The notes under the pieces: model-generated
Seen by the model: only the letters and a program-made list of their open reading frames with translations
Told to the model about the DNA's origin: nothing
Databases searched by the model: none
Shown: piece by piece, positions 1 to 27,033 of the stretch
How positions within the stretch are numbered: position 1 is the stretch's first letter
How the letters are laid out: each line of letters starts with the position of its first letter
Assembly (NCBI GenBank): GCA_029261855.1
Contig: JAJDAN010000042.1
Location: 124,001-188,000, forward strand
Origin: Deltaproteobacteria bacterium
Lineage (GTDB): Bacteria > Myxococcota_A > UBA9160 > UBA4427
Length of the DNA: 64,000 nt
Direction: 5' to 3'
Program-made: the position numbers and the translations under genes

Positions 1-1499
1 CCCTTCGCCCCTTCCGTCGTCTCGCGAGCGGCCTGCCAGGCGCCCAGGATAGCGACCAGCGGCGAGCCGTCCGGGCCCGGGAGCGTGAGGCCGAGCAGGG
101 TGGCGACGGTGGGCGCGACATCGACCTGGGACATTCTCTGCACGCGCACGCCGGGCCGGACGCCGGCTCCCCACGCCACGAAGCCCACGTCGCTACCCGG
201 GCGGGTGGGGAGGTAGCCGCCGAGGCCCTTGCGCGGGGTGGCCTGGACGATCAGCCCTCGAGCGGTCTTGCCGATGCCGTAGCCCGACCCGCCCTCGAGG
301 CCGAACCAGGCTTCCGGGTCTGCGTCCAGGCGCAGCAGCTCGCTGGCGGGGACGACTCGAAACGCACGCGTGCGTTCCGCTTCTTCCTCGAGCGCCTGCC
401 GGGCCAGGATCGCGCTGTCCTCACTGTCGGCGTACACGACCCCTGCGCCGCCGTAGCTGCGCACGTAGGCGTCCCAGCTGCCGATCCCCGCCCCGAGGTG
501 CATGGGCGCCTGGGTGATCAGGCCGACCCGTTCGAGTGCGACGTTCGGGTAGACGACGGAATGGATCGGGAACAGCGCTCGATCTCCCACGACGATGAAG
601 GTCGTGGTGTCGAGGATCCCCTGAGCCGCGAAGCAGTCGACCATGCGACCGATCGCCTGATCCACCTGAGAGAGCGCGATTCGCTTGCCGTCGCTGTCCG
701 GTCCGTCCCGGGCGATTGCCGTCCCGCTGTTTTCGAACGCGAGCAGCCAGAGCCCGGGTGTCACGGGCTGGCGCGCGATCTCGCACGCGAGCTTCGCGAT
801 CAGCTCGTCCCGCAGCAGGGCGCTCGGCCACGGGATCTGCGCCAGGGTCGGGTCCATTCGGGCCAGCCGATCGAGCACCCAGGGGCTGGCCTCGCCGGAC
901 AGCAGCTCGAACCACCGGGCTTCGGGATCCCGGTCGGGAACGCCCATGTCCGGCAGCAGCAGCCGCACGTCCGCCCCGCGCGTCAGCGGCCAGTTGAGCG
1001 CAGTCGCCGGGATCCCGTTCGCCTCTGCGATGTCCCAGATGGGCGTCCCCTGGATCCGACCCTCGCGCGCAATGCCCCGGACGTGGAGCCCCTGCGGACC
1101 CATCACTTCGTCGCCGAGCACCCGATGCCGCACGGGCAGCAGACCCGTCGCGAGCGTCGCGTGCACCGGATACGGCGCAGCCGGCAACACCGGCGTCATC
1201 GCGTTCGCGTACGCGCCGCGGGCGGCCAGGGTTGCGAGGTTCGGCATCGGGGCGCCGATGCTGCGCACGATGCCCGAACCCGCGCCGTAGTCGGACGGCT
1301 GCAAGCCCGCGACGGAGATCAGGACTACTCGACTCGGCGCCCGGGCCGGTTCGGAACGCGTGATCACCGCACTCACCCCGGCGGCCGGCTTCGCGTCGGG
1401 CTTGGCGCCATCGCCCGCACAAGCGACCCCGCCCACCGCCAGGAACGCAACCAGCAACAGTGTGACGACGGAAGAGACGGTCGACCCGGAGCGTCGCAT
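1..1499 (-). CDS. Alkaline phosphatase superfamily / type I phosphodiesterase-like protein, probably catalytically degenerate (C-terminus runs off the left edge)
   Basis: Own translation of the minus strand from ATG at 1499: MRRSGSTVSS...RVVLISVAGLQPSDY...TPVLPAAPYPVHATLATGLLPVRH...TFIVVGDRALFPIHSVVYPN...KGLGGYLPTRPGSDVGFVAWG. Overall layout matches COG1524-type AP-superfamily proteins. Frame checked open to the window edge; start overlaps the stop of the next gene. Confidence 0.8.
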   Translation of the reverse strand, partial: MRRSGSTVSSVVTLLLVAFLAVGGVACAGDGAKPDAKPAAGVSAVITRSEPARAPSRVVLISVAGLQPSDYGAGSGIVRSIGAPMPNLATLAARGAYANAMTPVLPAAPYPVHATLATGLLPVRHRVLGDEVMGPQGLHVRGIAREGRIQGTPIWDIAEANGIPATALNWPLTRGADVRLLLPDMGVPDRDPEARWFELLSGEASPWVLDRLARMDPTLAQIPWPSALLRDELIAKLACEIARQPVTPGLWLLAFENSGTAIARDGPDSDGKRIALSQVDQAIGRMVDCFAAQGILDTTTFIVVGDRALFPIHSVVYPNVALERVGLITQAPMHLGAGIGSWDAYVRSYGGAGVVYADSEDSAILARQALEEEAERTRAFRVVPASELLRLDADPEAWFGLEGGSGYGIGKTARGLIVQATPRKGLGGYLPTRPGSDVGFVAWGAGVRPGVRVQRMSQVDVAPTVATLLGLTLPGPDGSPLVAILGAWQAARETTEGAK

Positions 1500-2458
1500 C
1501 AACGGAATACACCTTCCCGTTCGGCGAGGCCCCGCGCGAACATATCGGTGATCGACTTGCGGACGACGTCCACGTGCTTCTGGATGACGGCGTCCTCGTC
1601 CGACGGATCGCCCTCGAAGTGCAGCGGCTCGCCGAAGTAGAAGCGGTACTTGACGGGCATCGGCAACAGGCCGAGGGGCCCGAGCAGGGGAAAGGTGGGG
1701 GTGATCGGCGCCGCCGGTGCCCCCACCAGGCGGCCCAGGGATTCGAGGTTTGCGAGCCCCGGGTTCTGCTCTTCGGAACCGACGAGGGCGACGGGCACGA
1801 TGGGCGTGTTGGTCGACAACGCGAGGCGCAGGAAGCCGAGCCCGAAGCGCTGGAGCTGGTAGCGATCCGAGTACAGCTTGTTCATGCCACGAACGCCTTC
1901 GGGAAAGACCATCACGCATTCCCCGGCCTCGAGCATCTTGATGCAGTTCTCGGGTGTTCCGACCATGGAGCCCATGCGAGCCGCCATCTCGCTGATGAAC
2001 GGCAGCTCCGACACCCAGTACTCGGCCATCGCGCGAGCCACTCGCGGCGGATCGGCCTCGAGCAGCATCGACATCGACAACATCATGCCGTCGAAGGGAA
2101 GCTGCCCGGCGTGGTTGCAGATGAGCAGCACGCGCCCGTCGGGCACGCGGTCGATGTCGTGGTTCTCGACGCGGAAGTAGTAGCGGTAGAGCAACGCCGA
2201 GGGCAGCGATCCCTTGCGGAAGGTCTCCGGGTGGAAGCCGTAGCGATCGAAGCCGTAGTCGTTGAGCGCGATCGGGATGCCGTCCACCCGGTCCTCGATC
2301 TCTTCCTGCAGTCGGCGTACCGCCATGGGCTGGAAGGCGCCGACCAGGTCCGTGAGCGTGGATAGGATCCCGGTGGGCCGCCGACGCTGGCGCAGGGCCT
2401 TCGCCCGCCGGCGTCCGGGCGCGTCGTCCTTGCGGACTGCGGATTTTCGGTCAGCCAT
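1499..2458 (-). CDS. Lysophospholipid/glycerol acyltransferase family protein (PlsC/MGAT-like)
   Basis: 319 aa; motifs NHAGQLPFDG, VMVFPEGVRG, PIVPVALVGSEEQ. Confidence 0.88.
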   Translation of the reverse strand: MADRKSAVRKDDAPGRRRAKALRQRRRPTGILSTLTDLVGAFQPMAVRRLQEEIEDRVDGIPIALNDYGFDRYGFHPETFRKGSLPSALLYRYYFRVENHDIDRVPDGRVLLICNHAGQLPFDGMMLSMSMLLEADPPRVARAMAEYWVSELPFISEMAARMGSMVGTPENCIKMLEAGECVMVFPEGVRGMNKLYSDRYQLQRFGLGFLRLALSTNTPIVPVALVGSEEQNPGLANLESLGRLVGAPAAPITPTFPLLGPLGLLPMPVKYRFYFGEPLHFEGDPSDEDAVIQKHVDVVRKSITDMFARGLAEREGVFR

Positions 2459-2545
2459 CCCTCACCTCTTTACTCGCTTGCGGCGCCCTTCTCGCTTGCG
2501 GCGCCTTCGTCGTCCGCCGAGTTGCCGTCCGCTGCGGCTCGCCCG

Positions 2546-3469
2546 TCACTCCCGGATGCTCGCGAAGATCTCGGGCAGACCGTACTTGCAGCGGAACCCG
2601 GTCGCTTCCGCGAAGCGACTGCCGTCGAGTGACACGGGGTACTTCAGGAAGTCGAGCAGGCCGGCGGGGTACGGCAACATCCCGAAGCGGAACAGACGCC
2701 CGAACAGCCAGCGCGCCGGGGGATCGGGGATGGGCCAGGCCGTGCCGCCCGTCTCCTCGATGGCCGTGTGCAGCGGCACCTCGCCGGGGCCGACCACGTT
2801 GAACACCCCCTGGAGCTGGTGGTCGACGGCCAGGGTCATCGCCTCGGCCAGATCATTTTCGTGAATGAAGGGGATCATCGGGTCGAAGCCCAGCACCGTG
2901 GGGACGCGCCGCTGGCGCAGGTATTCGCGCACCATGCTTGGCACGCGCGGACCCAGCGTGCTGACGGGACGAATCACGCTGGTGCGCAGCTCCGGACGGC
3001 GCCAGATGTTCGTCGAGACCAGGCTGTCGACCTCCACGAGATCGCGGATTTCGGGGTAGTTGCGGCTGGCGGACAGCGGCGTCTCTTCGTCCATCTGGTA
3101 GGGGTTCTCCGGGAACGCCCCGTACACGTAGCCGCTCGACAGCACGACCAGATGACGGACGCCGTACTTCACGCAGTGGTCGAGCAGAAGACGCGTGCCG
3201 CCGACGTTGACCGAGTGACGCTCGCGGTCCGATGCGCGGAAGTGCCGCACGAATCCCATGTGCACCACGGCGTCGGGCCGCGTGGTCCGCACGACGTCTT
3301 CGAACTTCCGCTTCCGCAAATCCACGACGTGGGTGTCGATCCCTCGGGGGCTACTCTTCCAGCGAGAAGTGTCGACACCCGTCACCGCGTACCGGTCCGA
3401 GAGCCGGCGCGCGACCAGACGGCCCAGGCCACCCGCCACCCCGGTCACTAGAACTTTTTCCACTGCCAC
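2546..3469 (-). CDS. NAD-dependent epimerase/dehydratase (extended SDR)
   Basis: 307 aa; N-terminal GVAGGLGRLVARRL Rossmann motif, SSGYVYG active-site region. Confidence 0.88.
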   Translation of the reverse strand: MAVEKVLVTGVAGGLGRLVARRLSDRYAVTGVDTSRWKSSPRGIDTHVVDLRKRKFEDVVRTTRPDAVVHMGFVRHFRASDRERHSVNVGGTRLLLDHCVKYGVRHLVVLSSGYVYGAFPENPYQMDEETPLSASRNYPEIRDLVEVDSLVSTNIWRRPELRTSVIRPVSTLGPRVPSMVREYLRQRRVPTVLGFDPMIPFIHENDLAEAMTLAVDHQLQGVFNVVGPGEVPLHTAIEETGGTAWPIPDPPARWLFGRLFRFGMLPYPAGLLDFLKYPVSLDGSRFAEATGFRCKYGLPEIFASIRE

Positions 3470-8155: not shown

Positions 8156-8190
8156 AAAGGCCCGCGACGGCGACGTCGCGGGCCTTTTTC
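8156..8190 (+). terminator. Rho-independent terminator downstream of etfBA
   Basis: AAAGGCCCGCGAC-GGCGAC-GTCGCGGGCCTTT perfect 13-bp stem followed by Ts. Confidence 0.92.
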
Positions 8191-8210: not shown

Positions 8211-8239
8211 TTGACAGCGGGGGCGCCGCCGCATACCTG
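8211..8239 (+). promoter_or_regulatory. Candidate sigma70 promoter for the ParA operon
   Basis: TTGACA (8211-8216), 17-bp spacer, TACCTG (8234-8239), 29 bp before the ATG at 8268. Confidence 0.6.
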
Positions 8240-8267
8240 TGGAGTCAACCCCCGGATCGAGTGCGAC

Positions 8268-9125
8268 ATGACTCGACGCATTGCCTTCATCAACGAGAAG
8301 GGGGGGAGTGGCAAGACCACCCTGGTCGCCAACATTGCCTCCCACCTCGCCATGGAACGTGGCCGGCGCACGCTGGCCATCGATATGGATCCCCAGGGCC
8401 AGCTCGGAAAGGTGCTGGGGCTCGATGTCCGCAAGCCCCGCGGCAGCTCCATCGAGCTTCTGGTCGATAGCCTGCTCGGCGATTCGTCCCGCCCGGACGC
8501 CCCGGAAACGGGGGCTCTTCGCCGCGCGCTTCCCATCCAACACACGCGCATCCCGCGCCTGGACGTGATCGTCGCCAACAAGGCGCTGGCTCTCGCGCCC
8601 GGTCTGGCAGACGCGACGCAGGAAACCGGGGACCGCGCTCCCGAACGGCGTCTCGCGCAAAATCTCGACTTGTCACGCGAAGCTCATGCGTACGACTTCG
8701 TGCTGTTCGACGCACCGCCTTCGTTTGGGGCGCTCACCCTGAGCGTCCTGTTGGCTTGCGAGGAAGTGGTGGTGCCGGTGCCCCTGACGTTTCTGGCCAT
8801 CGATGGATTCGCCGAGCTGCTGCGGACGATGGCCATGGTGCGGACACGCTACGGCCACCGGGCGCTCCGGGTGAGCATGGTCGTCCCGACCTTCTACCGG
8901 CGGACCCGCATGGCCCACGAGATCCTCGAGAAGCTCACCACGCGCTTCCCCAAGGAGATCGCCCAGACGATCGTCGGCTTCCACGTCAAGATCGACGAGG
9001 CCCAGTCGCACGGCCTCTCCATCTTCGAGTACGCGCCGCGGGACAAGGGCGCCGTCGTGATGGCCGCTCTCGCCGAAGAGCTCGAAGCCCGCGACCCCCG
9101 CACGAACACTGGAGACCCCGCCTGA
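8268..9125 (+). CDS. ParA/Soj-family ATPase (orphan)
   Basis: MTRRIAFINEKGGSGKTTLVANIASHLA deviant Walker A, IDMDPQGQLGKVLG, LFDAPPSFG. Confidence 0.93.
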   Translation: MTRRIAFINEKGGSGKTTLVANIASHLAMERGRRTLAIDMDPQGQLGKVLGLDVRKPRGSSIELLVDSLLGDSSRPDAPETGALRRALPIQHTRIPRLDVIVANKALALAPGLADATQETGDRAPERRLAQNLDLSREAHAYDFVLFDAPPSFGALTLSVLLACEEVVVPVPLTFLAIDGFAELLRTMAMVRTRYGHRALRVSMVVPTFYRRTRMAHEILEKLTTRFPKEIAQTIVGFHVKIDEAQSHGLSIFEYAPRDKGAVVMAALAEELEARDPRTNTGDPA

Positions 9126-10216
9126 TGGACATCACCCCGCGACTCGACCCCGAAGACCCCCTGGCCGACCTCCCCGTGCTGGGACGCGATCCCTTCGAGG
9201 CGCAGGAAGAGTTCGACCCCTTCGCGATCCTGACCGCCACCGCGGGCACGCTGCGCGTCGCTGCCAGCGGACGGGACGCGCCGTCGGTCGAAGGTCTCGA
9301 GCCGGATCCGGTCGTTCCCCTGTCCCTCCACCGCCGGCGGCGGCCTGCGCCGCTACTCGCGGACCTCGACCCGGTACCGCCCCGGGGCATCGTCGAGCGC
9401 TGGCTCGGAGCCGACGAGCGCCAGCGACTGGCTTCCCTGCAACACCTGGTGGACAGCGAGCTCCCCTACGACCGCATGGGGCTGTCCCCCGACGTCCTGC
9501 GCCGGACTTTCCCGATCTTCTACGCCCTCTATCGCCTCTACTTCCGCGTACGCAGCCAGGGCCACGAGCATCTGCCCACCCGTGGACCGGCCATCGTCGC
9601 AGCGAACCACGGCGGTCTCTTGCCTTTCGACGGCGCGATGCTGATCCTCGACGTGCTGCTGCACAGCGATCCGCCGCGGCTGCTGCGCTCCATCGTCGAT
9701 CGCTGGGCGGGGGAGCTGCCCTGGGTCAACATCTTCTACGCGCGCGTCGGGCAGGTGATCGGAACCCGCGAGAACTTCGACGATCTGCTCAGCGATGATC
9801 AGATGGTCCTCGTCTTTCCCGAAGGTGTCGCCGGCATCCGCAAGACCATCGCCCAGCGCAATCGGCTGCAGACCTTCCACATGGGCTTCGTCGAAGAGGC
9901 GCTCCGTCACCAGACGCCCATCGTGCCCGCAGCCGTCATCGGAAGCGACGACCAGACGCCCATCCTCTACGACCTGCCGAACCTGGCGCGCCGGCTCGGC
10001 CTGCCTGCGCTTCCGATCACGCCCACCTTCCCCTGGTTCGGCCCGCTGGGACTGCTGCCGTACCCCGTGCGCTACCGGCTCGTGTACGGCGAGCCACTGG
10101 CGTTCCACGAACGCTTCGCGCCCAAGGACGCAGACGACCCGCGCCTCGTCCGCTATCTGGCCCGGCAGGTCCGGCACCGCATCCAGCGCCTGGTGGACCG
10201 GGAGACGTCGCGATGA
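9125..10216 (+). CDS. Lysophospholipid acyltransferase family protein (PlsC/MGAT-like)
   Basis: ATGA overlap with the ParA stop; NHGGLLPFDG, VLVFPEGVAG; closely similar to the 1499..2458 protein (ITPTFPWFGPLGLLPYPVRYRLVYGEPL). Confidence 0.88.
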   Translation: MDITPRLDPEDPLADLPVLGRDPFEAQEEFDPFAILTATAGTLRVAASGRDAPSVEGLEPDPVVPLSLHRRRRPAPLLADLDPVPPRGIVERWLGADERQRLASLQHLVDSELPYDRMGLSPDVLRRTFPIFYALYRLYFRVRSQGHEHLPTRGPAIVAANHGGLLPFDGAMLILDVLLHSDPPRLLRSIVDRWAGELPWVNIFYARVGQVIGTRENFDDLLSDDQMVLVFPEGVAGIRKTIAQRNRLQTFHMGFVEEALRHQTPIVPAAVIGSDDQTPILYDLPNLARRLGLPALPITPTFPWFGPLGLLPYPVRYRLVYGEPLAFHERFAPKDADDPRLVRYLARQVRHRIQRLVDRETSR

Positions 10217-11256
10217 GCGGAGACCCCGAGCGCCGTCGTGTGCTCGTGAGTCACGCCGACCAGCCCCTCGGTCGCCGCATCGTGAAGCGGCTCTTCTGGG
10301 ACGAGCGAGTTGCACAGGTGCTGGCGATCGGAGACGGTCCGCCGCCCCGGTCCTTCGACCACTTCCTGGCCGCCCCGGACCGCCGCCTGGTCTACGCCCG
10401 GGTCGACCTCAGCCGGCACCGACCGGTGTCGAACCTGTTCCACTCCCAGGTGCGGGCCCACCGGATCGACTCGGTCATCCACGTCCCGAGCCACGGCCCG
10501 GGCGAGTCGCCGAACCGCCCCCTCGTCGCGGGCGTCGCGACGCGCACCGCCGAGGCGCGGCTCGTCCTGCAGCAATGCCTGCAGGACCGCGGCATCCACG
10601 ACCTGATCGTGCTCGGCAGTGCCTTCGTCTACCGGCTGACACCGGGCAATGCCAATCGCATGACGGAAGACAGCGAACTCAACCTCGACCCGGACGCCGC
10701 CGCCGATCTCCGCAGCTGGGTCGACTGCGACATGATCTTCCACGGCGAGGTCCACAACGACGCTCTGCGCGTCGTCCTGCTGCGCGTGCCGACCGTGGTC
10801 TGCGGCGGTGGCGCCGTCTTCTTCCATCCCTCGTTGTCGGCGGTCGAGCGCAACGACTGGCCGGCGCGCGACCTGCGCCCCCTCGGCTTCGACCCGCTCT
10901 GCGCGCTCATCTCGGACAAGGACGTCGCCCTCGCCGCACGGCTCGCGCTCCACTCCCGACACTCGGGCGTGTACAACGTCTCGGGCAACGAGACGCTGCC
11001 GCTCTCCGAGCTCAGCCGCTGGACGGGACAGCGCAGCCTGCCGGTCCCCGGGCCCTTGCTGCGGGTCGCGTCCCGGGTGGCCGGGCTCGCGGGCGGCCAA
11101 TGGCTGCGCGTTTCCGGCGACGGCCCGCAGATGCGATACGGCTTCACCCTGGATACCCGGCGAGCCGCGGAGCAGCTCGGCTTCCGCCCGGGACACCGGA
11201 TCGGACTCGCCCGGGCCGGCGACGGCCGGGTGCAGATCGAGACCCCGGAGATCTGA
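10213..11256 (+). CDS. NAD-dependent epimerase/dehydratase-like SDR protein
   Basis: 347 aa, ATGA overlap with acyltransferase; VLVSHADQPLGRRIVKRL, VLGSAFVYRLTPGN. Confidence 0.82.
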   Translation: MSGDPERRRVLVSHADQPLGRRIVKRLFWDERVAQVLAIGDGPPPRSFDHFLAAPDRRLVYARVDLSRHRPVSNLFHSQVRAHRIDSVIHVPSHGPGESPNRPLVAGVATRTAEARLVLQQCLQDRGIHDLIVLGSAFVYRLTPGNANRMTEDSELNLDPDAAADLRSWVDCDMIFHGEVHNDALRVVLLRVPTVVCGGGAVFFHPSLSAVERNDWPARDLRPLGFDPLCALISDKDVALAARLALHSRHSGVYNVSGNETLPLSELSRWTGQRSLPVPGPLLRVASRVAGLAGGQWLRVSGDGPQMRYGFTLDTRRAAEQLGFRPGHRIGLARAGDGRVQIETPEI

Positions 11257-15970: not shown

Positions 15971-16011
15971 ACCCTGTCAGTAGATCCTGTCAGGAGGACC
16001 TGTCAGGCGAG
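15964..16011. repeat. 13-bp tandem micro-repeat at convergent gene ends
   Basis: CCTGTCAG units starting at 15973, 15986, 15999 (13-bp period), partial unit at 15964. Confidence 0.75.
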
Positions 16012-17070
16012 GGACAGGCTCCGCGAGAAGGCGATGTGGCTGTCCGAGATCATGCCCTTGTCGCGCCAGCTCTGCTCGGTGCGCTCGGTCAGCAGCCCGA
16101 GATTGCGCAGGTTCGGCACCACCGTGTGCGTGTAGATGAGGCTGTTCAGCTCGGCGAAGTTGGGCAGCGCCGTGAACATCTGCGTGATGACTTCCGGGTC
16201 GATGTCGTACTTCGGCCCGAAGAGCTTCAGCATGTCCAGCTGCTGGTTGGCGTTGAGCGCCTCGAGCAGACCGAACGCCCAGTCTTCCATCTCGGCCATC
16301 TGCTCGGGCTCGGCCTCGGCGACGACGCGTCGCATGGTGAGTACACCGAAGGCCGCGTGGCGCGACTCGTCGCCTTGCACGCGGTACAGGATGTCGGAGA
16401 ACAGCGGGTTGCGGCATTCCTGGCGCATCATGTCCATGATGCCCACGGCCATGCCCTCGAACAGGCACTGCATGCCGAGGGTCTTCTTCTGCATGCCCTC
16501 GGCCTGGAGCAGCTCGTCGAGCAGGATCTTGAGCGTGCCGCCGATGGGATAGATGGTCCCCATCTTCTCGGACAGGAAGCGCGCGAAGACCTCCACATGG
16601 CGGGCTTCGTCGGCCACCTGGCTCGCCGCGTAGAACTTCTGGTCCATCTTGTCGCAGACGTTCGTCAGCTGGCCGCACAGCTGCAGGGCGGCCTGTTCGC
16701 CGTGCAACAGCTGTGACACGGTGAACGCCAGCTCATCGAAGGCGGCAGCCTTCTGGGTGGCCTCGTCCTTGCCCATCAGCTTGCAGACGTTGGCCATCAT
16801 CGACGCCTCGGGGTTCAGCACCCACTCGTCCTTGCTGACCGGTGCGCTCCAGTCCACGTCCTGGGCGGCGTTCCACTGGCCCTGCTTGCCCTTCTCGTAG
16901 AGGGCCCGCAGCTCTTCGACCTCGCTGCCGTACTCCCAGGTCCAGTGCAGGTCTACCGGGACGTCGACGTCGATCTTCTTGCGCAGATTGGCGAGCTCGT
17001 TCTCGTCCACCCAGTCGATGATCTCGAAGTTTCCGAGCTGCTTGCGGTGATCGGCCAGAATCTTGTCCAC
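16003..17070 (-). CDS. Ferritin-like di-iron protein
   Basis: GTG start at 17070; DEARH and DESRHAAFG motifs typical of di-iron carboxylate four-helix bundles. Confidence 0.78.
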   Translation of the reverse strand: MDKILADHRKQLGNFEIIDWVDENELANLRKKIDVDVPVDLHWTWEYGSEVEELRALYEKGKQGQWNAAQDVDWSAPVSKDEWVLNPEASMMANVCKLMGKDEATQKAAAFDELAFTVSQLLHGEQAALQLCGQLTNVCDKMDQKFYAASQVADEARHVEVFARFLSEKMGTIYPIGGTLKILLDELLQAEGMQKKTLGMQCLFEGMAVGIMDMMRQECRNPLFSDILYRVQGDESRHAAFGVLTMRRVVAEAEPEQMAEMEDWAFGLLEALNANQQLDMLKLFGPKYDIDPEVITQMFTALPNFAELNSLIYTHTVVPNLRNLGLLTERTEQSWRDKGMISDSHIAFSRSLSLA

Positions 17071-17081
17071 GGTGTTGCTCC

Positions 17082-17735
17082 TTAGCGGGCGCGTTGGGAA
17101 TCGGTAGCCGGGGTATCGGCGACGATGCCGCCCCGGACGAGCGACTTCAGCTCTCGCTTGCGTTCCTCCACCTGATCGGCAGAAAAGATCGGATTCCCCA
17201 GGATCTCTTCGCCGAGATCCGACGAGGCGAAGTGATAGACGGTGGCACCGATCAGGGTCTGGGTGAGATGCCCGGGAGAGACCGGTCGGAAGACCCCCGC
17301 CTCGACACCCTGGGCGATCAGCGCCTGGAAGCCGCCGATCAGCTGACGCAGGGTTTCCTCGTAGGGGGGCGGTGCTTCGGGGTCGTAGCCGACCTCGTCT
17401 TCCTCGAAGAGGCTGCGGAGTGCCAGCCGTGCCGTGGTCGGATGCTCGGCCAGGCCGTCGACCAGGGCGTCGATCAAGCGCTCGAGGCGAGCCGCCGGGT
17501 CGAGGGTGGCGCGCAGCGCCGGTGCGAGGGAATCGCCCAGCCGTGAAAGCGCGCGCGCCAGCACTTCGTTGTACAGCTCGAGCTTCGTCGGGAAGTGATG
17601 GAACAGGGACGACTTGCCGAGCCCCACGCCCAGGGCGACCTCGCGCATGCCGACTCCGGCATAGCCTCGGCGCGAGAACAGCGACTCGGCGATGTCGAGG
17701 ATCTTGGCGCGCGAGTCGGAGGCGGGGGTCTGCAC
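17082..17735 (-). CDS. TetR/AcrR family transcriptional regulator
   Basis: RAKILDIAESLFSRRGYAGVGMREVALGVGLGKSSLFHHFPTKLELYNEV. Confidence 0.95.
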   Translation of the reverse strand: MQTPASDSRAKILDIAESLFSRRGYAGVGMREVALGVGLGKSSLFHHFPTKLELYNEVLARALSRLGDSLAPALRATLDPAARLERLIDALVDGLAEHPTTARLALRSLFEEDEVGYDPEAPPPYEETLRQLIGGFQALIAQGVEAGVFRPVSPGHLTQTLIGATVYHFASSDLGEEILGNPIFSADQVEERKRELKSLVRGGIVADTPATDSQRAR

Positions 17736-17743
17736 GGAGACCG

Positions 17744-17772
17744 AACCTACCGACCGATCGGTCGGGTGTCAA
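17744..17772 (-). promoter_or_regulatory. tetR promoter with operator palindrome in the spacer
   Basis: Minus strand: TTGACA-CCCGACCGATCGGTCGG-TAGGTT; perfect 16-bp palindrome CCGACCGATCGGTCGG at 17750-17765. Confidence 0.8.
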
Positions 17773-17882
17773 TCCCGGCTCGCCGGTCAGCCCAGCCGGC
17801 GCGATTTCCCGCGCAGCGCCCTGCCCTTAGGCGAATTTCGGCCCAAGGCGGGGTAGGCTGTGCGGCCCCCGAAAGCCCACCC

Positions 17883-20009
17883 ATGAGACCCCCCGATGTC
17901 GCCTGGAAAAGCGCTTTGGTAAGAGGACTGTTGCCGCTTTTCGCGGAGCGGGACGAGAACCGGGTCGGGCCAGCGATCGCGCGAGCGGTAGCACGCGTCG
18001 CGTTGTGCGCAGCGGGCGCCGGGATCGCTCTCGCGCTTCTCTCGGCCTCGCCTGCGGCCGCCCAGATCGACGGCATCGGCGACCCACTCGATCCGGGCCC
18101 CGAGTTCCTCGTGAGCCGCATCGAGGTGCGCTACCGCGACGCGCATCCGGACCAGCCCCCGCTCTCCTCCATCCTGCCCCTGAGCGTTCGCATGGGCACG
18201 GCGACGACCGGCTTCATCGCGCCGCACCCGGATCGTCCGGCGACGTGGATCGAGGTCGGCCGGGACGGTCCGCCCCTGCCCTTCCACGCCGATGCCATCG
18301 GCACGGTGTCTGCGGCGCTGCTCGCCGAGCTGCAGCAACGCGGCTTGCTCGGCGTCTACGTCGAACCCGATCCCTCCGACATCGACATCCTGGCCGAGCG
18401 CGACCTCCGCTCGCCTGGCAACACCGTACTGCGCTTCGTGATCGTGACTGCCCGGGTGCGCCTGCTGCGCACCATCGCGTCGGGCGACCGGGATCTCGGT
18501 GAGTGGAGGATCGACAACGAGGTCCACGACCGCATCCGCGAGCGCTCGCCCATCCAGCCCACGGGCGCCGACGACGAAGACAGCACCGACCTCGTCGACG
18601 GCGATCTGCTCGACGACTACCTCTTCCGTCTGAATCGACACCCGGGCCGACGCGTGGACGCGGCGCTCGCCCCCGCCGACGACGGGCGCGGCGTCTCCCT
18701 CGACTTCCTCGTGACCGAATCGAAGCCCTGGTACGTCTACGCCCAGGTCTCGAACACCGGTACGAACGAGCAAAACGAGTGGCAGCAGCGCTTCGGCTAC
18801 GTGAACAACCAGCTGCTCGACCGGGACGACACGTTCCGCTTCGAGTACTTCCGCGCGGGCCTCGACGACCTGAACGGCGTCAGCCTTTCGTATGACGCTC
18901 CCTGGTTCGACTCGACCCGGCCCTGGTGGTGGGGGCCGCCGAGCGATGGGCCCGACTGGCTGAACTGGCTCGACCGCTCGAAGCTGCCCTGGTTCGGCAA
19001 CGACGACCTGCGCTGGCGGGTCTTCGCGTCGTACACGTCCTACTCGACGGACGTCCGCCTCGGCGACCAGGGCAACGAGAAGATCGACGGCACCGACTTC
19101 GATTTCGGCGGGCGTCTCATCTACAACGCCTTCCAGTACCGGGCCTTCTTCATCGACGTCTTCGGCGGCATGATGGGCCGCGGCATCATCATCGACAACG
19201 ACGCGGCGGACCAGGAAGCGTCGCGCTTCTTCGTGATCCCCCAAGGCGGCATCGAGATGGAACGCATCACCCCCATCTCGACCTTCTTCAGCAACATCAC
19301 CTTCGAGGGTGGCGTCAACCCGGCGAAGTCCCAGGACATCCTCAAGGGCGACGATCCGAGTGGCGGCATCGAGGCCCTGGGGCGCGCACAGCCCGACGAC
19401 ACCTGGGTCGCCATGAAGGGCGACCTCGTCCTCAGCCAATACCTCGAGCCGCTGCTGAATCCTTCGGGCTGGGAAGACCCGACCACCCAGCGCTCGTCGA
19501 CCCTGGCCCATGAGATCGCGCTTTCGGCGCGCGGCCAGTACGCCTTCGGCTATCGCTTGATTCCCCAGGCCGAGGCGGTGGCGGGCGGCCTGTACAGCGT
19601 GCGGGGCTACAAGCAGTCCTCGGCGGTGGGCGACAACGTCATCATCGGCAGCTTCGAGTACCGCTTCCATCTGCCTCACAGCCTGCCCGTGGCACGCGAG
19701 CCGGTGCCGCTGCCGGTGCTCGGTGGCTTCCGGGTGGCACCCCAGCAGGTGTACGGCCGCGCGGACTGGGACTTCATCCTCAGCGCCTTCGTCGACTCGG
19801 CGCTGACGTCTGCCAACGACCGGCCGAACCCGGGCGTCGAGCCCGGCGAGTTCCTGCTGGGCACGGGCCTGGGCGCCGAGCTGATGATCCGCAGCAACTT
19901 CCGTGCGCGTCTCGACTGGGGGGTCGCCCTCAAGAGCACGGATTCGACCACGAACCACGTGGATGCAGGCGATCAGGAGTTCCATCTCTTCTTCCAGGTG
20001 CTGTACTAA
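17883..20009 (+). CDS. ShlB/FhaC-family TpsB outer-membrane transporter
   Basis: Signal peptide; YSVRGYKQSSAVGDN matches the VRGY motif; C-terminal beta-barrel ending FHLFFQVLY; followed by TpsA. Confidence 0.88.
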   Translation: MRPPDVAWKSALVRGLLPLFAERDENRVGPAIARAVARVALCAAGAGIALALLSASPAAAQIDGIGDPLDPGPEFLVSRIEVRYRDAHPDQPPLSSILPLSVRMGTATTGFIAPHPDRPATWIEVGRDGPPLPFHADAIGTVSAALLAELQQRGLLGVYVEPDPSDIDILAERDLRSPGNTVLRFVIVTARVRLLRTIASGDRDLGEWRIDNEVHDRIRERSPIQPTGADDEDSTDLVDGDLLDDYLFRLNRHPGRRVDAALAPADDGRGVSLDFLVTESKPWYVYAQVSNTGTNEQNEWQQRFGYVNNQLLDRDDTFRFEYFRAGLDDLNGVSLSYDAPWFDSTRPWWWGPPSDGPDWLNWLDRSKLPWFGNDDLRWRVFASYTSYSTDVRLGDQGNEKIDGTDFDFGGRLIYNAFQYRAFFIDVFGGMMGRGIIIDNDAADQEASRFFVIPQGGIEMERITPISTFFSNITFEGGVNPAKSQDILKGDDPSGGIEALGRAQPDDTWVAMKGDLVLSQYLEPLLNPSGWEDPTTQRSSTLAHEIALSARGQYAFGYRLIPQAEAVAGGLYSVRGYKQSSAVGDNVIIGSFEYRFHLPHSLPVAREPVPLPVLGGFRVAPQQVYGRADWDFILSAFVDSALTSANDRPNPGVEPGEFLLGTGLGAELMIRSNFRARLDWGVALKSTDSTTNHVDAGDQEFHLFFQVLY

Positions 20010-20022
20010 TGGGGGGCTGCGG

Positions 20023-23000
20023 ATGAAGGACGAGCCGATGCGATCCAGCCAGCGTCAGAAGCCTGTCGTCCAGGACCTCGGCCGCGTCACGAGACGCTGG
20101 CTGGCGGGTGCCAGTCTGAGCGCGTCTTTCGCACTGGCGTCGGCTGTCGCCCCCGCACCCGCGAGCGCACAGATGGTGGGCGGCGAGGTCACCCACGGCA
20201 GCGCCGCGGTCTCCCAGCGTGCGACCGAAACGGGAACCCACACCCAGATCGACACGGCGACGCGACACACCCGCATGAAATGGGAGCGTCACGACATCCC
20301 GCAAGGTGACTCCGTGCGCGTCCAGCAGCCGAGTAGCAGCTCGTCGTATCTCGCGCAGGTGAGCGACGCCAGCGTCACCACAATCGACGGCATCCTCAGC
20401 TCGAACGGCCAGGTCTGGATCGCGAACCCGGCGGGCGTCTATTTCGGTGGCTCGGCGGTGGTGGACGTCGCGCGCCTGGTGGCCGGAGCCGGCGAGATTT
20501 CGAAGCTCGACTTCGTAAACGGGCGCCGTCGCTTCACGAACATCCAGGGCGAAGTCGTCAACGCCGGATCGATCACGGCGAACCTGGGCGTCACCCTGAT
20601 CGGCCGCGCCGTCGCGAACCACGGTCAGATCGTGACACGCCGGGGCGACATCGTGATGGCCGCCGGGGACGAGGTCTGGGTGAAGCGCCACGACACCCAC
20701 ATCCAGGTGCACATGCCGGACGCTTCGGGTGCGCCGGCGGTCGAGAACACCGGCGTGCTCGAGACCCAGGCGCGCGGTCGCGCCCGGCTCGCAGCAGGTG
20801 ACTTCCTCGGCCTCGCCATCCGCAACACCGGCGAGATCCACTCGCGCACCATCGCCCTGGAAGCCGGCGCCGACAGCATCGTCGAGGTGCGCGGCACTCT
20901 CGACGCCACCCGGGACGAGAGCTACCGCAGTGACAACCGCCGCGGCGGCACGATCGACATCGAGGGCGACCTCATCCTGGTCGACGACGCCGTGATCGAC
21001 GCCTCGGGCCCGACTGGCGGCGGCGAGATCCGCATCGGCGGCGAGGTGGCGGGCGGCGCCCTCAGCGGCGGGCCCGGTACCGCCGAGAACGACAACGGCA
21101 ACCTTCGGAATGCCCGCGGCACCCTCGTGAGCGACGACTCGGTGATCCGCGCCGACGCAACCGATAGCGGTGACGGCGGCAGCATCGTGCTGTGGTCCGA
21201 CGAGCAGACCCAGGTGCTCGGCACGATCTCGGCCGAAGGCGGCGCGGGCGGCGGCGCGGGCGGCTTCATCGAGACGTCCAGCAAGGGCGCGCTGCTCGTG
21301 GACGCCGACGTGTCCGTGGCCGCCCAGGCCGGCGACGCAGGGCTGTGGCTGCTCGACCCGGTGAACGTCCACATCAACGACGCCGAGGCTGCGAATCCCG
21401 CCAACGCGAACCTGCTGCTCACCGAGGCCGCGACGCCCGGCCTGAGCATCTTCGACTTCCTGCCGGACCTCGACGCGACGTCGATTCCGCCGGACTCGTA
21501 CGTGTCGTCGATCAGCATCGAGGACGCGCTGGTGCGCGGGGGCACCGTCTTCGTCACCACCGAGGCGCGCTTCCTGACCCTCACCGGCGACCCGACCGCC
21601 GGCGACATCATCGTCGAGAGCCCGATCAACATCCTGCCGTCGCACCTCGTGCGCCCGAACACCACGGGCACCCTGGTGCTGGTGGCCGCCCAGGACGTCC
21701 AGATCAATGAGGAGATCGCCAGCGACAACCCGAACTTCCGGCTGAACCTCGACCTCATCGCGAACGACAACGAGCTCACCTCGGGCGCCGCGGGCCAGAT
21801 GGAAGAGTCCGACCAATTCGCCGTCGGCGACGTCGTGTTCAACGCCGACATCCGCACCAACGGCGGCTTCGTTAGCGCCCGGGGCGTCAACGTCGACCTG
21901 AACGCCGGCTTCAGCATCGACACGACGCGACTGGAGCTTCCCGCCGACGCAAACGGCGGCTTCGTGCGCTTTTCCGCCGCGAACCCCGTCGTCGGCAACA
22001 ACACCCCCGCCGACGTCACCATCGCGGGCTCGATCTTCACCGACGGCGCCACCTTACTGGCGACGGGGCAGAGCTTCGAACTCGCGGACACCGGCTTCAT
22101 CGACGCCTTCGGCGTGCTCGCCAACAACACCGGCGACGAGGTCGTGAACCTCGGAACCGTCGACCTGGGCTTCCTCGACGACATCGTCATCGACGGCAAC
22201 ATCCAGACGGAAATCCTCGACCTGGCCGGTGCCACCAGTGGCACGGGCAACCTGGTGTTCAACTCGACGGACGCGGCCCTGATCACGATCAGCGCCAATC
22301 AGATCAGCCTGAGCGCCGGCGACGGCGTCCCCAACGATCCGAACGACAACGACACCGACGCCCAGATCCTGATCGGCGCCATGGTCAACTTCATCGATTC
22401 CGGCGACGACATGGCACCGACGGACCCGACGAAGGCGCCCGACGAGTTCCGCTTCCTGCAGGATGCGGCGGTGCTCGACGCCGACCTGCCCGAGGTCACG
22501 CAGTTCGGGGGCAGCAGCGTGGCCGGCATGCGCTACGGCATCGAGTCCCGGGACGGCGCCGCCGACCCCGCCGATTTCGACATCATGCTGAGCAGCCCTG
22601 AGAAGTTCGCCGGCGCGGACCTCGCCCTGGTGTTCCCGGACTCGATCTCCATCGTGAGCGAGATCGCGCCCCTGAACGTGAGCCTGTCGGTGGTCGAAGG
22701 CTTCACGATCACGACCACCCTGGCGAACAACCTGCGCCCGGTCGAGGACCTCGTCGAAGAAGAAGGCGGCATCCTGCGGGTGCACGCGGGTCTGAATGGA
22801 ACCGGCAACCTGTTCTTCGAGGACGGCGTGCTGCTCGAAGCGGCGCGCATCTCGCTGCAGGCCGGTGACACCACTTCCGCCGACAACGGCTCCGGCACCC
22901 AGTCCCAGGTGTTCGCGACGAACACCGACGACATCACCGTCACCTTCAACCCGACCAAGTCCATGGAGATCCGCCAGGACGCGCTGCTCAACGCCGACAA

Positions 23001-26000
23001 CATCCCGGACGCCGATCAGTTCACTCTGGGCATCGCCGAACCCGTCTTCCCCGCCATCGACTACATCCTGCAGTCCGAGGGCGGCGGCATCACCCTGGCC
23101 GACGCCACGAAGGTCTTCCAGACGGATCTGACCCTGACGGCCCGGGACACCATCGAGCTGCAGCAGCCGATCAGCGTGAACAGCATGGACCTCGGCGGTT
23201 TCGCGAGCTTCCAGGTCACGGAAGATCTGCTCGATGCCATCACGATCGAGGCCCGCGACGCGCTGGACCCGGACTACACGCGGACCTTCACCCTGCGCGC
23301 CGGCAACGGCGGCCTCAGCTTCCAGAGCCAGAAGCAGGAAGACGGTCAGACCATCGACCTGCAGCTGCGCGTGGAAGCCGAGAACATCGAGCTGATCGGT
23401 CAGACCATCGACATCTCGACGGGCACGCCGATCTTCCAGCTCGACGACGTCACCTCACCCGAGCGCTTCATCTTCACCCAGGGCAACGACATCGGAGACC
23501 TGGCCCTGCCGACTTCCGCCAACTTCGCGGACGGCCTCGGGCCGAGCGAGCTGTTCGTCGTGCAGTCGACCAGCTCGGTCGACCTCAGCCAGACCGGCCA
23601 GATGACGACCACGACCGATCCGAGCGAGCGCTTCTGGCAGTTCCCGGTCCAGGAGACCACCGAAGTCATCCTCACCGCCATCGCGACCAACGTGCGACGC
23701 CGGGACGGCTTCAACGTCGTGCTGGGCCAGTACGACAACATCTGGGGAGACAGCGTCACCCTGCAGGCCACCTTCGAGCGAGTCGCCGGCCAACTCGAGC
23801 CCATCGGATTCGGCGAGGTCGACGCGAAGAACGTCGCTTCCATCCTGGGCCGCGACCCCAGCATCGACTACACGGAGATCACGCTCCCCCTCGACCCGGC
23901 CGTCGACGGCCCCATGCGCCCGGTGCCCGGCGACCCGGACACCGAGGAGCCGCTCCCGACCCGCAGCTTCAGCATCATCCAGGACGCCGACTTCCTGCTG
24001 AAGGACCCGGCGAGGAACCTGCTGCCGGACTTCGGCGTCACCGACATGAGCCTCGGCGTGCAGCCAGACGGCTACTCCCTGCGCAGCGTGACGGGCTCGA
24101 TCCAGGTGCTGAACGAGCAGCTGCGAGGCACGAACCTCTCGCTGCAGGTCGACCAGGCCGACCAGGTCGGGCAGTCGGACACCCCGGACGAGTTCATCCT
24201 CTTCGACCGCGACGGCCCCCTCGAAGTCACGTCCTTGTTCGCCCAGAAGCGCGGGTCCTTCGAGGTCGGCTACGAGGCGACCGTCAGCGGAAATCCCCTG
24301 AACATCATCGCGGAGCGCGGCATCAGCCTGGTGTCCGATGCCTTCGGAGACAGCGCGAACGGCGACGGCACCCTGAGCTTCGCCGATGGCGTCTTCCTGA
24401 CTGCGGAGAACTTCTTCCTCCAGGCTGGGGTCGGCGGGTCCGGCGAGGGCATCTACATCGATGCGCGCCAGAACGACCCGACCTTCAACCTCGTCGGCGA
24501 CGCCACCTTCGATTTCGTACAGCAGGGACCCATTCGCAACGGTGTCGTTCGCGACGGGGCGAGCTCGTACGACGCGGATCTCAGCGACCTGCAGCTCGAA
24601 GACATCGACTACGGCAGGCTCCCGTCCCAGACCCAGTTCGACCTGACGAACGGACAGCTCGACCGCTACCGCATCGCGAGCCTCCAGGGGGACGTCGAGA
24701 TCAACGATCCGGGCAATGTCCTGATCGGGCGCACCACCAACCTGAGCGCCGGCTCGGCAACCCTCTTCCGCACCCTCACCCTGCGCGCCGACATCGCACC
24801 GGCGGATATGACGCCGCCGGAGACGTGCGCGGTCGATGCCTTCTGCGCCAACGGCGAGAACACGGACCCGAACCTCGTCCTGATCCCCAGCGGATCCAAC
24901 GTCGAGGCCGTCGAGCTGGCCGCGGCCACCATCCTGCTCGAGGCGCCCGAGGGCTACGTCGACGCCGGCGACCCGCGCATCGTCTTCGACGTGCTCGGCC
25001 CCGAGCCGCGGCTCGCCATCCGACAGCTCGACGCGGTGCTCGACATCGACGCCTTCCGCCTGCCGGACCGGCTGCAGATCGTCGGCGGCTTCGACGAGAC
25101 CCCCTACGAGCTGCAGGCCGTGGGCGGCATCACCGTGGGCGAAGAGCTCGCGGGGCGGGTCGAGAACTCGAACCTGATCCTGATCGCGGGCATCCCCGAA
25201 GACGACTTCGAGGCCGCCTTTGGCGCGACCCGCGGCCAGCCTCCGGTACCCGACGACGACGAGGACCTGCCCGACCACGTCTACGACCGCATGTCCGACT
25301 TGAACGGCGACGGCACCGTCAACACGGCGGACCGCGTTCTCTACGACCTGCTCACGCCGTCCCAGGTCACCATCCAGGGCAGCAACTTCTTCGAGCTCAT
25401 CCTGCGCAGCCTCGAGATCGAATCGAGCACCGAAGACGACCTCGCCATCCGCATCGGCGATGTCGAGATCCAGACCGAGGCCGACCAGACCTATCGCGAC
25501 GAGGTCCAGATCATCGGCGACGCGATCCTCACGGCGCGAGCGGGCATCCTCGACCGCCTCGACGCCCTCTTCACCGCCAATGCCAGCAGCATCATCTTCG
25601 AAGAAGAAGTCTACGGCCAGACGCCGGGACAGGACTCGCTGACCGTGCAGGCCACGAATCGCATCCGCTTCGGCAAGAACATCGGCACGCACCTCGACGG
25701 CTTCGGCACCCAGCTGCGCCTCGGGAGCCTCAGCATCAACCTGCAGCAGCTGATCCAGCTCGAGCTGCCGCCGCCCACGCCCCGGGCCGAGTTCGGCAGC
25801 GCGGACCTCGCCGGAACCTTCCGCGTCGCCGCCGACGAAGTGCTGTTGAACGCGAGCTCCGGAGACAGCCAGTCGATCTACAACCGGGCCGTCATCCCGG
25901 ACGCCGCCACCTTCTTCCGCCAGGGCGGCAACCTGCACTTCGACCTCGGCGACGGCGGCGTCCTCCAGATGGGCCAGAACGAGAAGCTTTCCGTGGACGG

Positions 26001-27033
26001 CTTGTCCCTCGTCATCGACGCCCCGAACGGGACCGTGACCGTCGGCGATCTTTCGGCACTCGACCTCATCGACGTGAACGCCGACACGATCCATCTGCTG
26101 CGCCGATCGGGCGCCAAGGTGGTCCGGGCAAACGGTCGCGACACCCAGGACGCCGGCGTCGACTACGTCGCGAAGCAGATCCTGTTCCACGACGAGGGCA
26201 TGATCCACGACAGCAACACCCTGCACCGCAACCAGCAGGGCCAGGGGCGCGACGCGCGCTTCGGCGTCGACGATCCCTTCAACGCTCCCGCCTTCATGGA
26301 CAACTTCTCGGTGCTGAGCCTCGAGTTCAACATCCTGACGGGCGAAGGGCTCGAGTTCGGCGGTGGCGACCTGCCCATCGACGGCATTCCCGACGGCATC
26401 TCCCGCGTTCAACTGGCGGACACCTACCCCGATATCCGCCCCAACGTGCCGATCGCGGTGCCCGCGAACTACCGGGTGCAGGACCCGGGCTCGCTGCGCG
26501 ACGTCGGCATCGACGTCCGACTGCCGACGCCGTCGGAGCTGCGTGCGGCCGCGCGCGGCGCCGCGACCTTCCGCGATCTCGGCAGCATCGAGCGCGTCGC
26601 GGGCAAGACCGTTCTCGACGTCTCCGAGGTGCGCCTCGTCGCCGAGGAGATCGAGCGTGCCGTCGTGCTGCACGACCGGGTCTTTGCCCCGGACGGCAGC
26701 CGGGCCGCCCAGGTGCGGACGATCCTGCAGGCGGCAGCGGACGACTACCGCCGCAGCACGGGTGCCCGCCGCATCGTCGGCTTCGAGCTGCGCCGTTACG
26801 TGCACAACCGGCCCAGCAGCCAGTTCGAGGCCTACCAGGAACTACAAAAGCTCGACTCCCTCTTCCGTCATCACCGCCGGTCCGGCCTGACGCCGACGGA
26901 GTACCACGCCATCCAACGCGAGTGGCTCGAGTCGATCCTGCCGGAGGGCATCAGCCTGCAGGAGTTCGCCGAGTTCATTCATCCGTCGCGCTATGTTCGC
27001 GGCAGCGACGTGTTGGACGTGTTCGGCGACTGA
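20023..27033 (+). CDS. TpsA exoprotein, filamentous-hemagglutinin N-terminal (TPS) domain, ~2,336 aa
   Basis: TPS-domain motifs: GILSSNGQVWIANPAGVYFGGSAVVDVARLVA; signal peptide; long beta-helix-type repeats; adjacent tpsB. Confidence 0.92.
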   Translation: MKDEPMRSSQRQKPVVQDLGRVTRRWLAGASLSASFALASAVAPAPASAQMVGGEVTHGSAAVSQRATETGTHTQIDTATRHTRMKWERHDIPQGDSVRVQQPSSSSSYLAQVSDASVTTIDGILSSNGQVWIANPAGVYFGGSAVVDVARLVAGAGEISKLDFVNGRRRFTNIQGEVVNAGSITANLGVTLIGRAVANHGQIVTRRGDIVMAAGDEVWVKRHDTHIQVHMPDASGAPAVENTGVLETQARGRARLAAGDFLGLAIRNTGEIHSRTIALEAGADSIVEVRGTLDATRDESYRSDNRRGGTIDIEGDLILVDDAVIDASGPTGGGEIRIGGEVAGGALSGGPGTAENDNGNLRNARGTLVSDDSVIRADATDSGDGGSIVLWSDEQTQVLGTISAEGGAGGGAGGFIETSSKGALLVDADVSVAAQAGDAGLWLLDPVNVHINDAEAANPANANLLLTEAATPGLSIFDFLPDLDATSIPPDSYVSSISIEDALVRGGTVFVTTEARFLTLTGDPTAGDIIVESPINILPSHLVRPNTTGTLVLVAAQDVQINEEIASDNPNFRLNLDLIANDNELTSGAAGQMEESDQFAVGDVVFNADIRTNGGFVSARGVNVDLNAGFSIDTTRLELPADANGGFVRFSAANPVVGNNTPADVTIAGSIFTDGATLLATGQSFELADTGFIDAFGVLANNTGDEVVNLGTVDLGFLDDIVIDGNIQTEILDLAGATSGTGNLVFNSTDAALITISANQISLSAGDGVPNDPNDNDTDAQILIGAMVNFIDSGDDMAPTDPTKAPDEFRFLQDAAVLDADLPEVTQFGGSSVAGMRYGIESRDGAADPADFDIMLSSPEKFAGADLALVFPDSISIVSEIAPLNVSLSVVEGFTITTTLANNLRPVEDLVEEEGGILRVHAGLNGTGNLFFEDGVLLEAARISLQAGDTTSADNGSGTQSQVFATNTDDITVTFNPTKSMEIRQDALLNADNIPDADQFTLGIAEPVFPAIDYILQSEGGGITLADATKVFQTDLTLTARDTIELQQPISVNSMDLGGFASFQVTEDLLDAITIEARDALDPDYTRTFTLRAGNGGLSFQSQKQEDGQTIDLQLRVEAENIELIGQTIDISTGTPIFQLDDVTSPERFIFTQGNDIGDLALPTSANFADGLGPSELFVVQSTSSVDLSQTGQMTTTTDPSERFWQFPVQETTEVILTAIATNVRRRDGFNVVLGQYDNIWGDSVTLQATFERVAGQLEPIGFGEVDAKNVASILGRDPSIDYTEITLPLDPAVDGPMRPVPGDPDTEEPLPTRSFSIIQDADFLLKDPARNLLPDFGVTDMSLGVQPDGYSLRSVTGSIQVLNEQLRGTNLSLQVDQADQVGQSDTPDEFILFDRDGPLEVTSLFAQKRGSFEVGYEATVSGNPLNIIAERGISLVSDAFGDSANGDGTLSFADGVFLTAENFFLQAGVGGSGEGIYIDARQNDPTFNLVGDATFDFVQQGPIRNGVVRDGASSYDADLSDLQLEDIDYGRLPSQTQFDLTNGQLDRYRIASLQGDVEINDPGNVLIGRTTNLSAGSATLFRTLTLRADIAPADMTPPETCAVDAFCANGENTDPNLVLIPSGSNVEAVELAAATILLEAPEGYVDAGDPRIVFDVLGPEPRLAIRQLDAVLDIDAFRLPDRLQIVGGFDETPYELQAVGGITVGEELAGRVENSNLILIAGIPEDDFEAAFGATRGQPPVPDDDEDLPDHVYDRMSDLNGDGTVNTADRVLYDLLTPSQVTIQGSNFFELILRSLEIESSTEDDLAIRIGDVEIQTEADQTYRDEVQIIGDAILTARAGILDRLDALFTANASSIIFEEEVYGQTPGQDSLTVQATNRIRFGKNIGTHLDGFGTQLRLGSLSINLQQLIQLELPPPTPRAEFGSADLAGTFRVAADEVLLNASSGDSQSIYNRAVIPDAATFFRQGGNLHFDLGDGGVLQMGQNEKLSVDGLSLVIDAPNGTVTVGDLSALDLIDVNADTIHLLRRSGAKVVRANGRDTQDAGVDYVAKQILFHDEGMIHDSNTLHRNQQGQGRDARFGVDDPFNAPAFMDNFSVLSLEFNILTGEGLEFGGGDLPIDGIPDGISRVQLADTYPDIRPNVPIAVPANYRVQDPGSLRDVGIDVRLPTPSELRAAARGAATFRDLGSIERVAGKTVLDVSEVRLVAEEIERAVVLHDRVFAPDGSRAAQVRTILQAAADDYRRSTGARRIVGFELRRYVHNRPSSQFEAYQELQKLDSLFRHHRRSGLTPTEYHAIQREWLESILPEGISLQEFAEFIHPSRYVRGSDVLDVFGD

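Follow-up and report, generated by a model that had tools for sequence, protein, structure and literature searches.

An orphan ParA ATPase gene conserved beside a PlsC-type acyltransferase gene: a candidate positioning system with a predicted partner tag

Genes and signals at the locus

The window, i.e. the whole stretch of 64,000 nucleotides that was analysed, carries three overlapping genes, ParA, AT1 and SDR1, downstream of etfBA and a terminator hairpin and upstream of the EF-P gene. ParA (8268..9125, +) encodes an orphan ATPase of 285 aa with Pfam/HMMER matches to AAA_31 (1.1e-30) and CbiA (4.8e-18). AT1 (9125..10216, +) encodes a PlsC-type acyltransferase of 363 aa with a disordered N-terminal extension, and SDR1 (10213..11256, +) a degenerate extended SDR, or pseudo-SDR, of 347 aa. 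The ORFs lie where the first-pass annotation of this DNA had put them and overlap as it described: ParA and AT1 share one base pair at TGATG (9123..9127, +), AT1 and SDR1 share ATGA (10213..10216, +). In relatives the overlap of ParA and AT1 is 4 bp and nearly universal, and the AT1 and SDR1 genes overlap in most of them.

The terminator reported earlier after etfBA is confirmed. An intrinsic terminator-like hairpin follows etfA (8156..8189, +), with a perfect stem of 13 bp, a loop of 6 nt and a run of Ts, and the predicted folding of 8156-8187 is strong (RNA fold, -30.7 kcal/mol, z -5.2). The promoter that the same annotation assigned to ParA, TTGACA-N17-TACCTG (8211..8239, +), is on the other hand unsupported: the putative -35 box TTGACA scores 6/6, but the -10 box TACCTG only 2/6 relative to TATAAT, and a promoter scan found no promoter-like site. 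ParA probably starts at ATG 8268 and not at TTG 8211, which opens the interval of the first-pass annotation (8211-11256) and lies inside the putative -35 box.

ParA displays a deviant Walker A motif, KGGSGKT (8298..8318, +), with the signature Lys at position 11 and the catalytic Lys at position 16, followed by DMDPQG and VLFDAPPS for Walker A' and B. Residues K11, K16, D39, D41 and D148 are invariant in the alignment. The Walker A variants among relatives are KGGSAKT (19), KGGSGKT (12) and KGGTCKT (3); most relatives have KGGSAKT or KGGTCKT for KGGSGKT and have thereby exchanged the P-loop glycine that precedes the catalytic lysine. Arg residues of T. thermophilus Soj align with R212 and K241, which we take to correspond to R189 and R218 of B. 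subtilis Soj. Position 241 is occupied by K or R in most members, though a few have Gln, Leu or Ala there, and position 212 by Asn or Pro in some of the distant relatives. In B. subtilis Soj, R189 and R218 are basic residues for non-specific DNA binding (PMC3778016).

The nearest relatives of solved structure are Soj proteins. The Soj/ParA proteins of ParABS systems are the best match of the orphan ParA among solved structures and share its fold and Walker motifs; it differs from them by the lack of ParB or parS, by its separate clade and by NEKGG[ST]xKT in place of NQKGGVGKT. We looked for ParB near the orphan ParA and found none; the genome's own Soj adjoins its ParB on another contig, in agreement with the earlier description of a ParA with no ParB nearby.

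The acyltransferase domain of AT1 covers residues 141-271 (9545..9937, +) and includes the motifs NHGGLLPFD and VFPEG. Like the PlsC/MGAT-like lysophospholipid acyltransferases, AT1 belongs to Pfam PF01553 (8.3e-15), has VFPEG and adopts the PlsC fold (AlphaFold2 (AF2) model against PlsC 5kym, E 2.4e-5). It differs from them by H-x6-D (N-H-GGLLPF-D) instead of H-x4-D, throughout the subfamily, and by a tag-bearing N-terminal extension of about 110 residues. Its sequence profile retrieved only PlsC 5kym among solved structures (E 0.0045), and single-sequence searches of solved structures with AT1 and SDR1 gave no match.

SDR1 has no Pfam/NCBIfam match. Its AF2 model (pLDDT 82.5) is an extended SDR fold of GalE/RmlB type, with structure matches to 4zrm, 1bxk and 7ys8. 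The SDR1 family has [TS]HADxPLGRR in place of TGxxGxxG (SHADQPLGRR in the window), and the active-site position lacks both the Tyr and the YxxxK motif; given this loss of motifs, an active epimerase was rejected. As SDR1 has lost these signature residues and several genomes do without the gene (see below), it is likely a non-catalytic accessory.

A paralogous pair that the first-pass annotation had missed lies at 1499-3469 on the reverse strand, in a neighbourhood kept across the order. AT2 (1499..2458, -) is 39% identical to AT1, falls in a separate clade, has no extension motif and is not linked to ParA. SDR2 (2546..3469, -) is 27% identical to SDR1, keeps TGxxGxxG and matches Pfam Epimerase (2e-24). 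This divergent pair seems to be related to AT1-SDR1 by duplication.

Conservation of the ParA-AT1 unit and the clade of ParA

Relatives were surveyed in 98 genomes, mostly metagenome bins, searched with each of the ParA, AT1 and SDR1 proteins. Adjacency was counted from gene coordinates, leaving out contig ends. ParA of the clade is present in 46 of the 98; three genomes (G001, G031 and G041) have a contig end beside ParA, which leaves 43 testable, and AT1 directly follows ParA in 41 of these (the exceptions are G092 and G097). This adjacency is far beyond chance and is no accidental neighbourhood. SDR1 is also kept in about 35 genomes; G006, G063, G069 and G091 have no SDR1, and in G030 the gene is truncated. 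Since SDR1 is degenerate and lost in some genomes, ParA-AT1 is the core of the operon. The earlier proposal of an orphan ParA tied to a pair of lipid enzymes is supported for the acyltransferase, as a conserved unit, and not for the SDR as a working partner, which has neither the NAD motif nor the catalytic Tyr and whose gene four genomes do without.

Across the order the neighbourhood comprises AT2-SDR2, an alpha/beta hydrolase, a glyoxalase-like protein, etfB, etfA, ParA, AT1, SDR1, EF-P, a patatin and a WYL regulator. In a sister family (L115 and L116) the triplet is found outside the usual etfBA/EF-P context and is therefore a unit of its own. Elsewhere in the window, an AurF-like di-iron protein (16003-17058, -; Pfam AurF 1.3e-9) adjoins a TetR-type regulator (17085-17735, -), and in some relatives this pair is also found close to the locus. 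An ORF of 2376 aa (19903-27033, +) resembles filamentous haemagglutinin-type secreted proteins and lies downstream of a BamA/ShlB-like ORF (17595-20009), an arrangement that looks like two-partner secretion.

In the tree the orphan ParA falls in a separate clade (100/100 support), apart from Soj, PomZ-like proteins and one gammaproteobacterial ParC. In a phylum sample of 284 genomes this clade is confined to 32, with an E-value gap from 1e-95 to 7e-56 relative to other ParAs. At least 39 loci of the clade, well separated from generic ParAs, were found in 84,980 species genomes that were scanned; among the matches listed they belong to Myxococcota, Nitrospinota, Nitrospirota, Hydrogenedentota (Abyssobacteria), Dadabacteria and one Gemmatimonadetes bin. 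A defence system was also considered and rejected, PADLOC giving only a weak P-loop match. The first-pass annotation had named two results that would refute it, a triplet found in no other genome and a ParA grouping with segregation proteins. Neither was obtained: the triplet is kept across the order and in the sister family, with ParA-AT1 adjacent in nearly all testable genomes, and the ParA clade excludes Soj.

An N-terminal motif in partners of the ParA clade

The N-terminal extension of AT1, to which the earlier annotation had drawn attention, gains in importance from a short motif, LGRDPF (residues 19-24; 9179..9196, +), which we predict to be a tag recognized by ParA on the basis of its association with ParA linkage. 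In the AF2 model of AT1 the pLDDT stays under 50 from residue 1 to 21 and from 26 to 69; within this N-terminal stretch only residues 22-25, which belong to the motif, exceed that value. LGxDPF is near-invariant in the ParA-linked acyltransferases, with the variants ALVRDPF, ALERDPF, LGRDPL and LGANPF, and was found in 0/46 of the ParA-unlinked ones tested. The linked acyltransferases of L144, L149 and L158 are without the tag. Among 568 ORFs of at least 200 aa taken as background, the only N-terminal occurrence is AT1 itself (0/567 others).

On the tree of acyltransferases, linkage to ParA must have changed three times or more. Supported branches separate the linked proteins with the motif (the AT1 clade, L130 with LGSDPF and L157 with LGHDPF, G091 with LGNDPF) from those without it; G091 and L157 are long branches in this tree. 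The CheW proteins encoded after clade ParAs start with the same motif: LGRNPL in L134, IGRNPL in L140 and LGRDPL in L156. Two further CheW proteins, L270 and L271, came to light once the motif had already been put forward, and both read LGRDPL, so that 5/5 carry [LI]GR[DN]PL. Because the CheW and PlsC domains are unrelated, the motif tracks ParA and not the cargo. Motif counts within the AT1 clade are not phylogenetically independent, and the independent support comes from the CheW partners and the other acyltransferase branches. With at least three changes of linkage on the tree and the motif carried by CheW partners, common descent alone is insufficient to account for the association of motif and ParA.

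The clade ParAs have three kinds of neighbours, namely acyltransferases, CheW/CheA and a small coiled-coil protein with weak similarity to phasins. Acyltransferase partners with an SDR upstream occur in Abyssobacteria, Dadabacteria and two further bins, and the gene order is SDR-ParA-AT in L130, L144, L149 and L158, which belong to other phyla. CheW/CheA partners occur in Nitrospinota, Nitrospirota and a proteobacterial bin. Some clade ParAs have no acyltransferase and lie beside the phasin-like coiled coil, whose Pfam phasin score is below the cut-off; this is the case in Myxococcus, Corallococcus, Archangium and Anaeromyxobacter. As the same clade sits with CheW/CheA and phasin-like proteins, ParA itself is not specific to lipids. 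The earlier interpretation, of a ParA dedicated to lipid enzymes, must thus be widened to these other partners.

Some details of these partners are worth recording. In the five CheW loci (L134, L140, L156, L270 and L271) the gene is downstream of ParA, and the protein reads [LI]GR[DN]PL...DSIW at its N-terminus, followed by a long disordered linker; the arrangement resembles that of ParC/ParP chemotaxis systems, and its ParA lies outside the ParC clade. A coiled-coil protein of about 100 aa is encoded just upstream of ParA in L137, L142, L143, L145-L147, L150, L152, L153 and L155. The N-termini of some phasin-like coiled coils read LxxNPM or LKxNPV, which is faintly tag-like.

A candidate positioning system and its alternatives

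ParA/MinD ATPases position chromosomes, plasmids, carboxysomes, flagella, chemotaxis arrays and the divisome. No ParA linked to a glycerolipid acyltransferase came up in a limited search of the literature. We propose, with a probability of about 0.58, that the locus encodes a ParA/MinD-type system which positions, clusters or partitions AT1; the acyltransferase is probably both the partner of ParA and its cargo. Described partners of ParA/MinD ATPases reach the ATPase through a disordered N-terminus and bind the cargo with their remaining part (PMC10241942, PMC7993993). The layout of AT1 matches this architecture, with the acyltransferase as the cargo part. ATP-bound dimers of ParA would bind the nucleoid, and AT1, anchored by its PlsC-type domain at the inner membrane or a lipid body, would dock on them through the LGxDPF tag of its disordered N-terminus. 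Cycling of ParA could then spread, cluster or partition AT1, and the site of lipid synthesis would be localised, i.e. the lipid system would be spatially organised. SDR1 would have a dispensable accessory role without catalysis, perhaps bound to AT1.

A broader reading is that the orphan ParAs of a single clade rely on the same short N-terminal address tag, LGx[DN]P[FL], joined in evolution to unrelated cargo such as acyltransferases and CheW, and that the tag has redirected ParA to a lipid enzyme, giving a positioned or segregated site of lipid synthesis. We put this forward tentatively, at slightly less than even odds.

One of the closest parallels is ParC/ParP, which positions chemotaxis arrays in Vibrio and other gammaproteobacteria. 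There too the ParA is an orphan with its partner gene just downstream, and ParP consists of an N-terminal ParC-binding part, a disordered Pro-rich linker and a folded, CheW-like cargo domain (PMC5706961). The cargo domain of AT1 is in contrast an acyltransferase, and the ParC of Marinospirillum (L258) falls outside the clade of the orphan ParA, its ParP being without LGxDPF. In the division-site positioning system of Myxococcus, a short N-terminal peptide of the modular partner PomX activates PomZ, which is also a ParA-type ATPase (PMC7993993). However, the PomX peptide is basic and PomX forms a coiled-coil filament, and the PomZ-like proteins of L171, L188 and L261 are outside the clade. McdA/McdB, which positions carboxysomes, also dedicates a ParA-type ATPase to a metabolic cargo (PMC10241942). 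That cargo is a protein organelle and McdB is an unrelated partner, whereas at this locus the enzyme itself seems to bear the tag.

The charge of the AT1 N-terminus raises another explanation. Residues 1-60 have a net charge of -9 in the window protein and of 0 to -13 across the order, +13 being reached only in G091, whereas the known ParA-activating peptides are positively charged (PMC7993993). Given this difference, the tag may bind ParA without stimulating its ATPase. It also makes it possible that ParA is an ATP-dependent regulator of AT1, which would bind the tag and switch lipid synthesis on or off according to its nucleotide state, with no positioning. The tight 1:1 translational coupling of ParA and AT1 and the long disordered linker of AT1 would fit such a switch as well. 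But we consider it unlikely because the same ParA clade partners CheW, a component of arrays whose ParA-linked relatives are positioned (ParC/ParP, PMC5706961), and for this reason we favour a positioning role.

The cargo might instead be a storage lipid body (a wax ester/TAG droplet or a PHA granule) that ParA segregates at division, with AT1 as a surface protein. In Myxococcus, Anaeromyxobacter and others, clade ParA follows the coiled-coil protein with weak phasin similarity; WS/DGAT genes are present in 85/98 relatives, and the linked acyltransferase of L130 scores above the DAGAT cut-off. But PHA synthase was found in 0/46 of the ParA-clade genomes of the survey, so that a PHA granule is rejected as cargo in this lineage. 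Nine AT1-linked genomes have no WS/DGAT match, which leaves WS/DGAT droplets unsupported as a required cargo, and many genomes with WS/DGAT are without clade ParA. A storage body thus seems quite improbable. Finally, similarity to Soj and the canonical ParB elsewhere in the genome could suggest that ParA segregates the chromosome or a mobile element with a distant ParB, AT1 and SDR1 merely sharing its transcription unit, but this is virtually ruled out by the tree, which places the orphan ParA in another clade, and by the separate Soj-ParB pair, as well as by acyltransferase linkage repeated in several phyla and gene orders.

If the positioning reading is true, a step of membrane- or neutral-lipid synthesis would be actively placed in bacteria. 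A testable recognition motif common to unrelated cargo proteins would be direct evidence for exchangeable "luggage tags" of ParA, and would offer a route to the partners of other orphan ParAs.

Two further sets of ParA neighbours were noted in the course of the scan. Partners encoded downstream of generic ParAs in Planctomycetota, Desulfobacterota and Nitrospirota (L161, L162, L165, L173, L176, L184, L195 and L196) share an N-terminal [DE][IV]SHLFLSG, which may be another ParA tag. In L171, L188 and L200, myxococcal ParAs are followed by proteins starting with MKKAFDANVSRA[RK]P[KR][ML]RLGAM, and these look like PomZ-PomX pairs.
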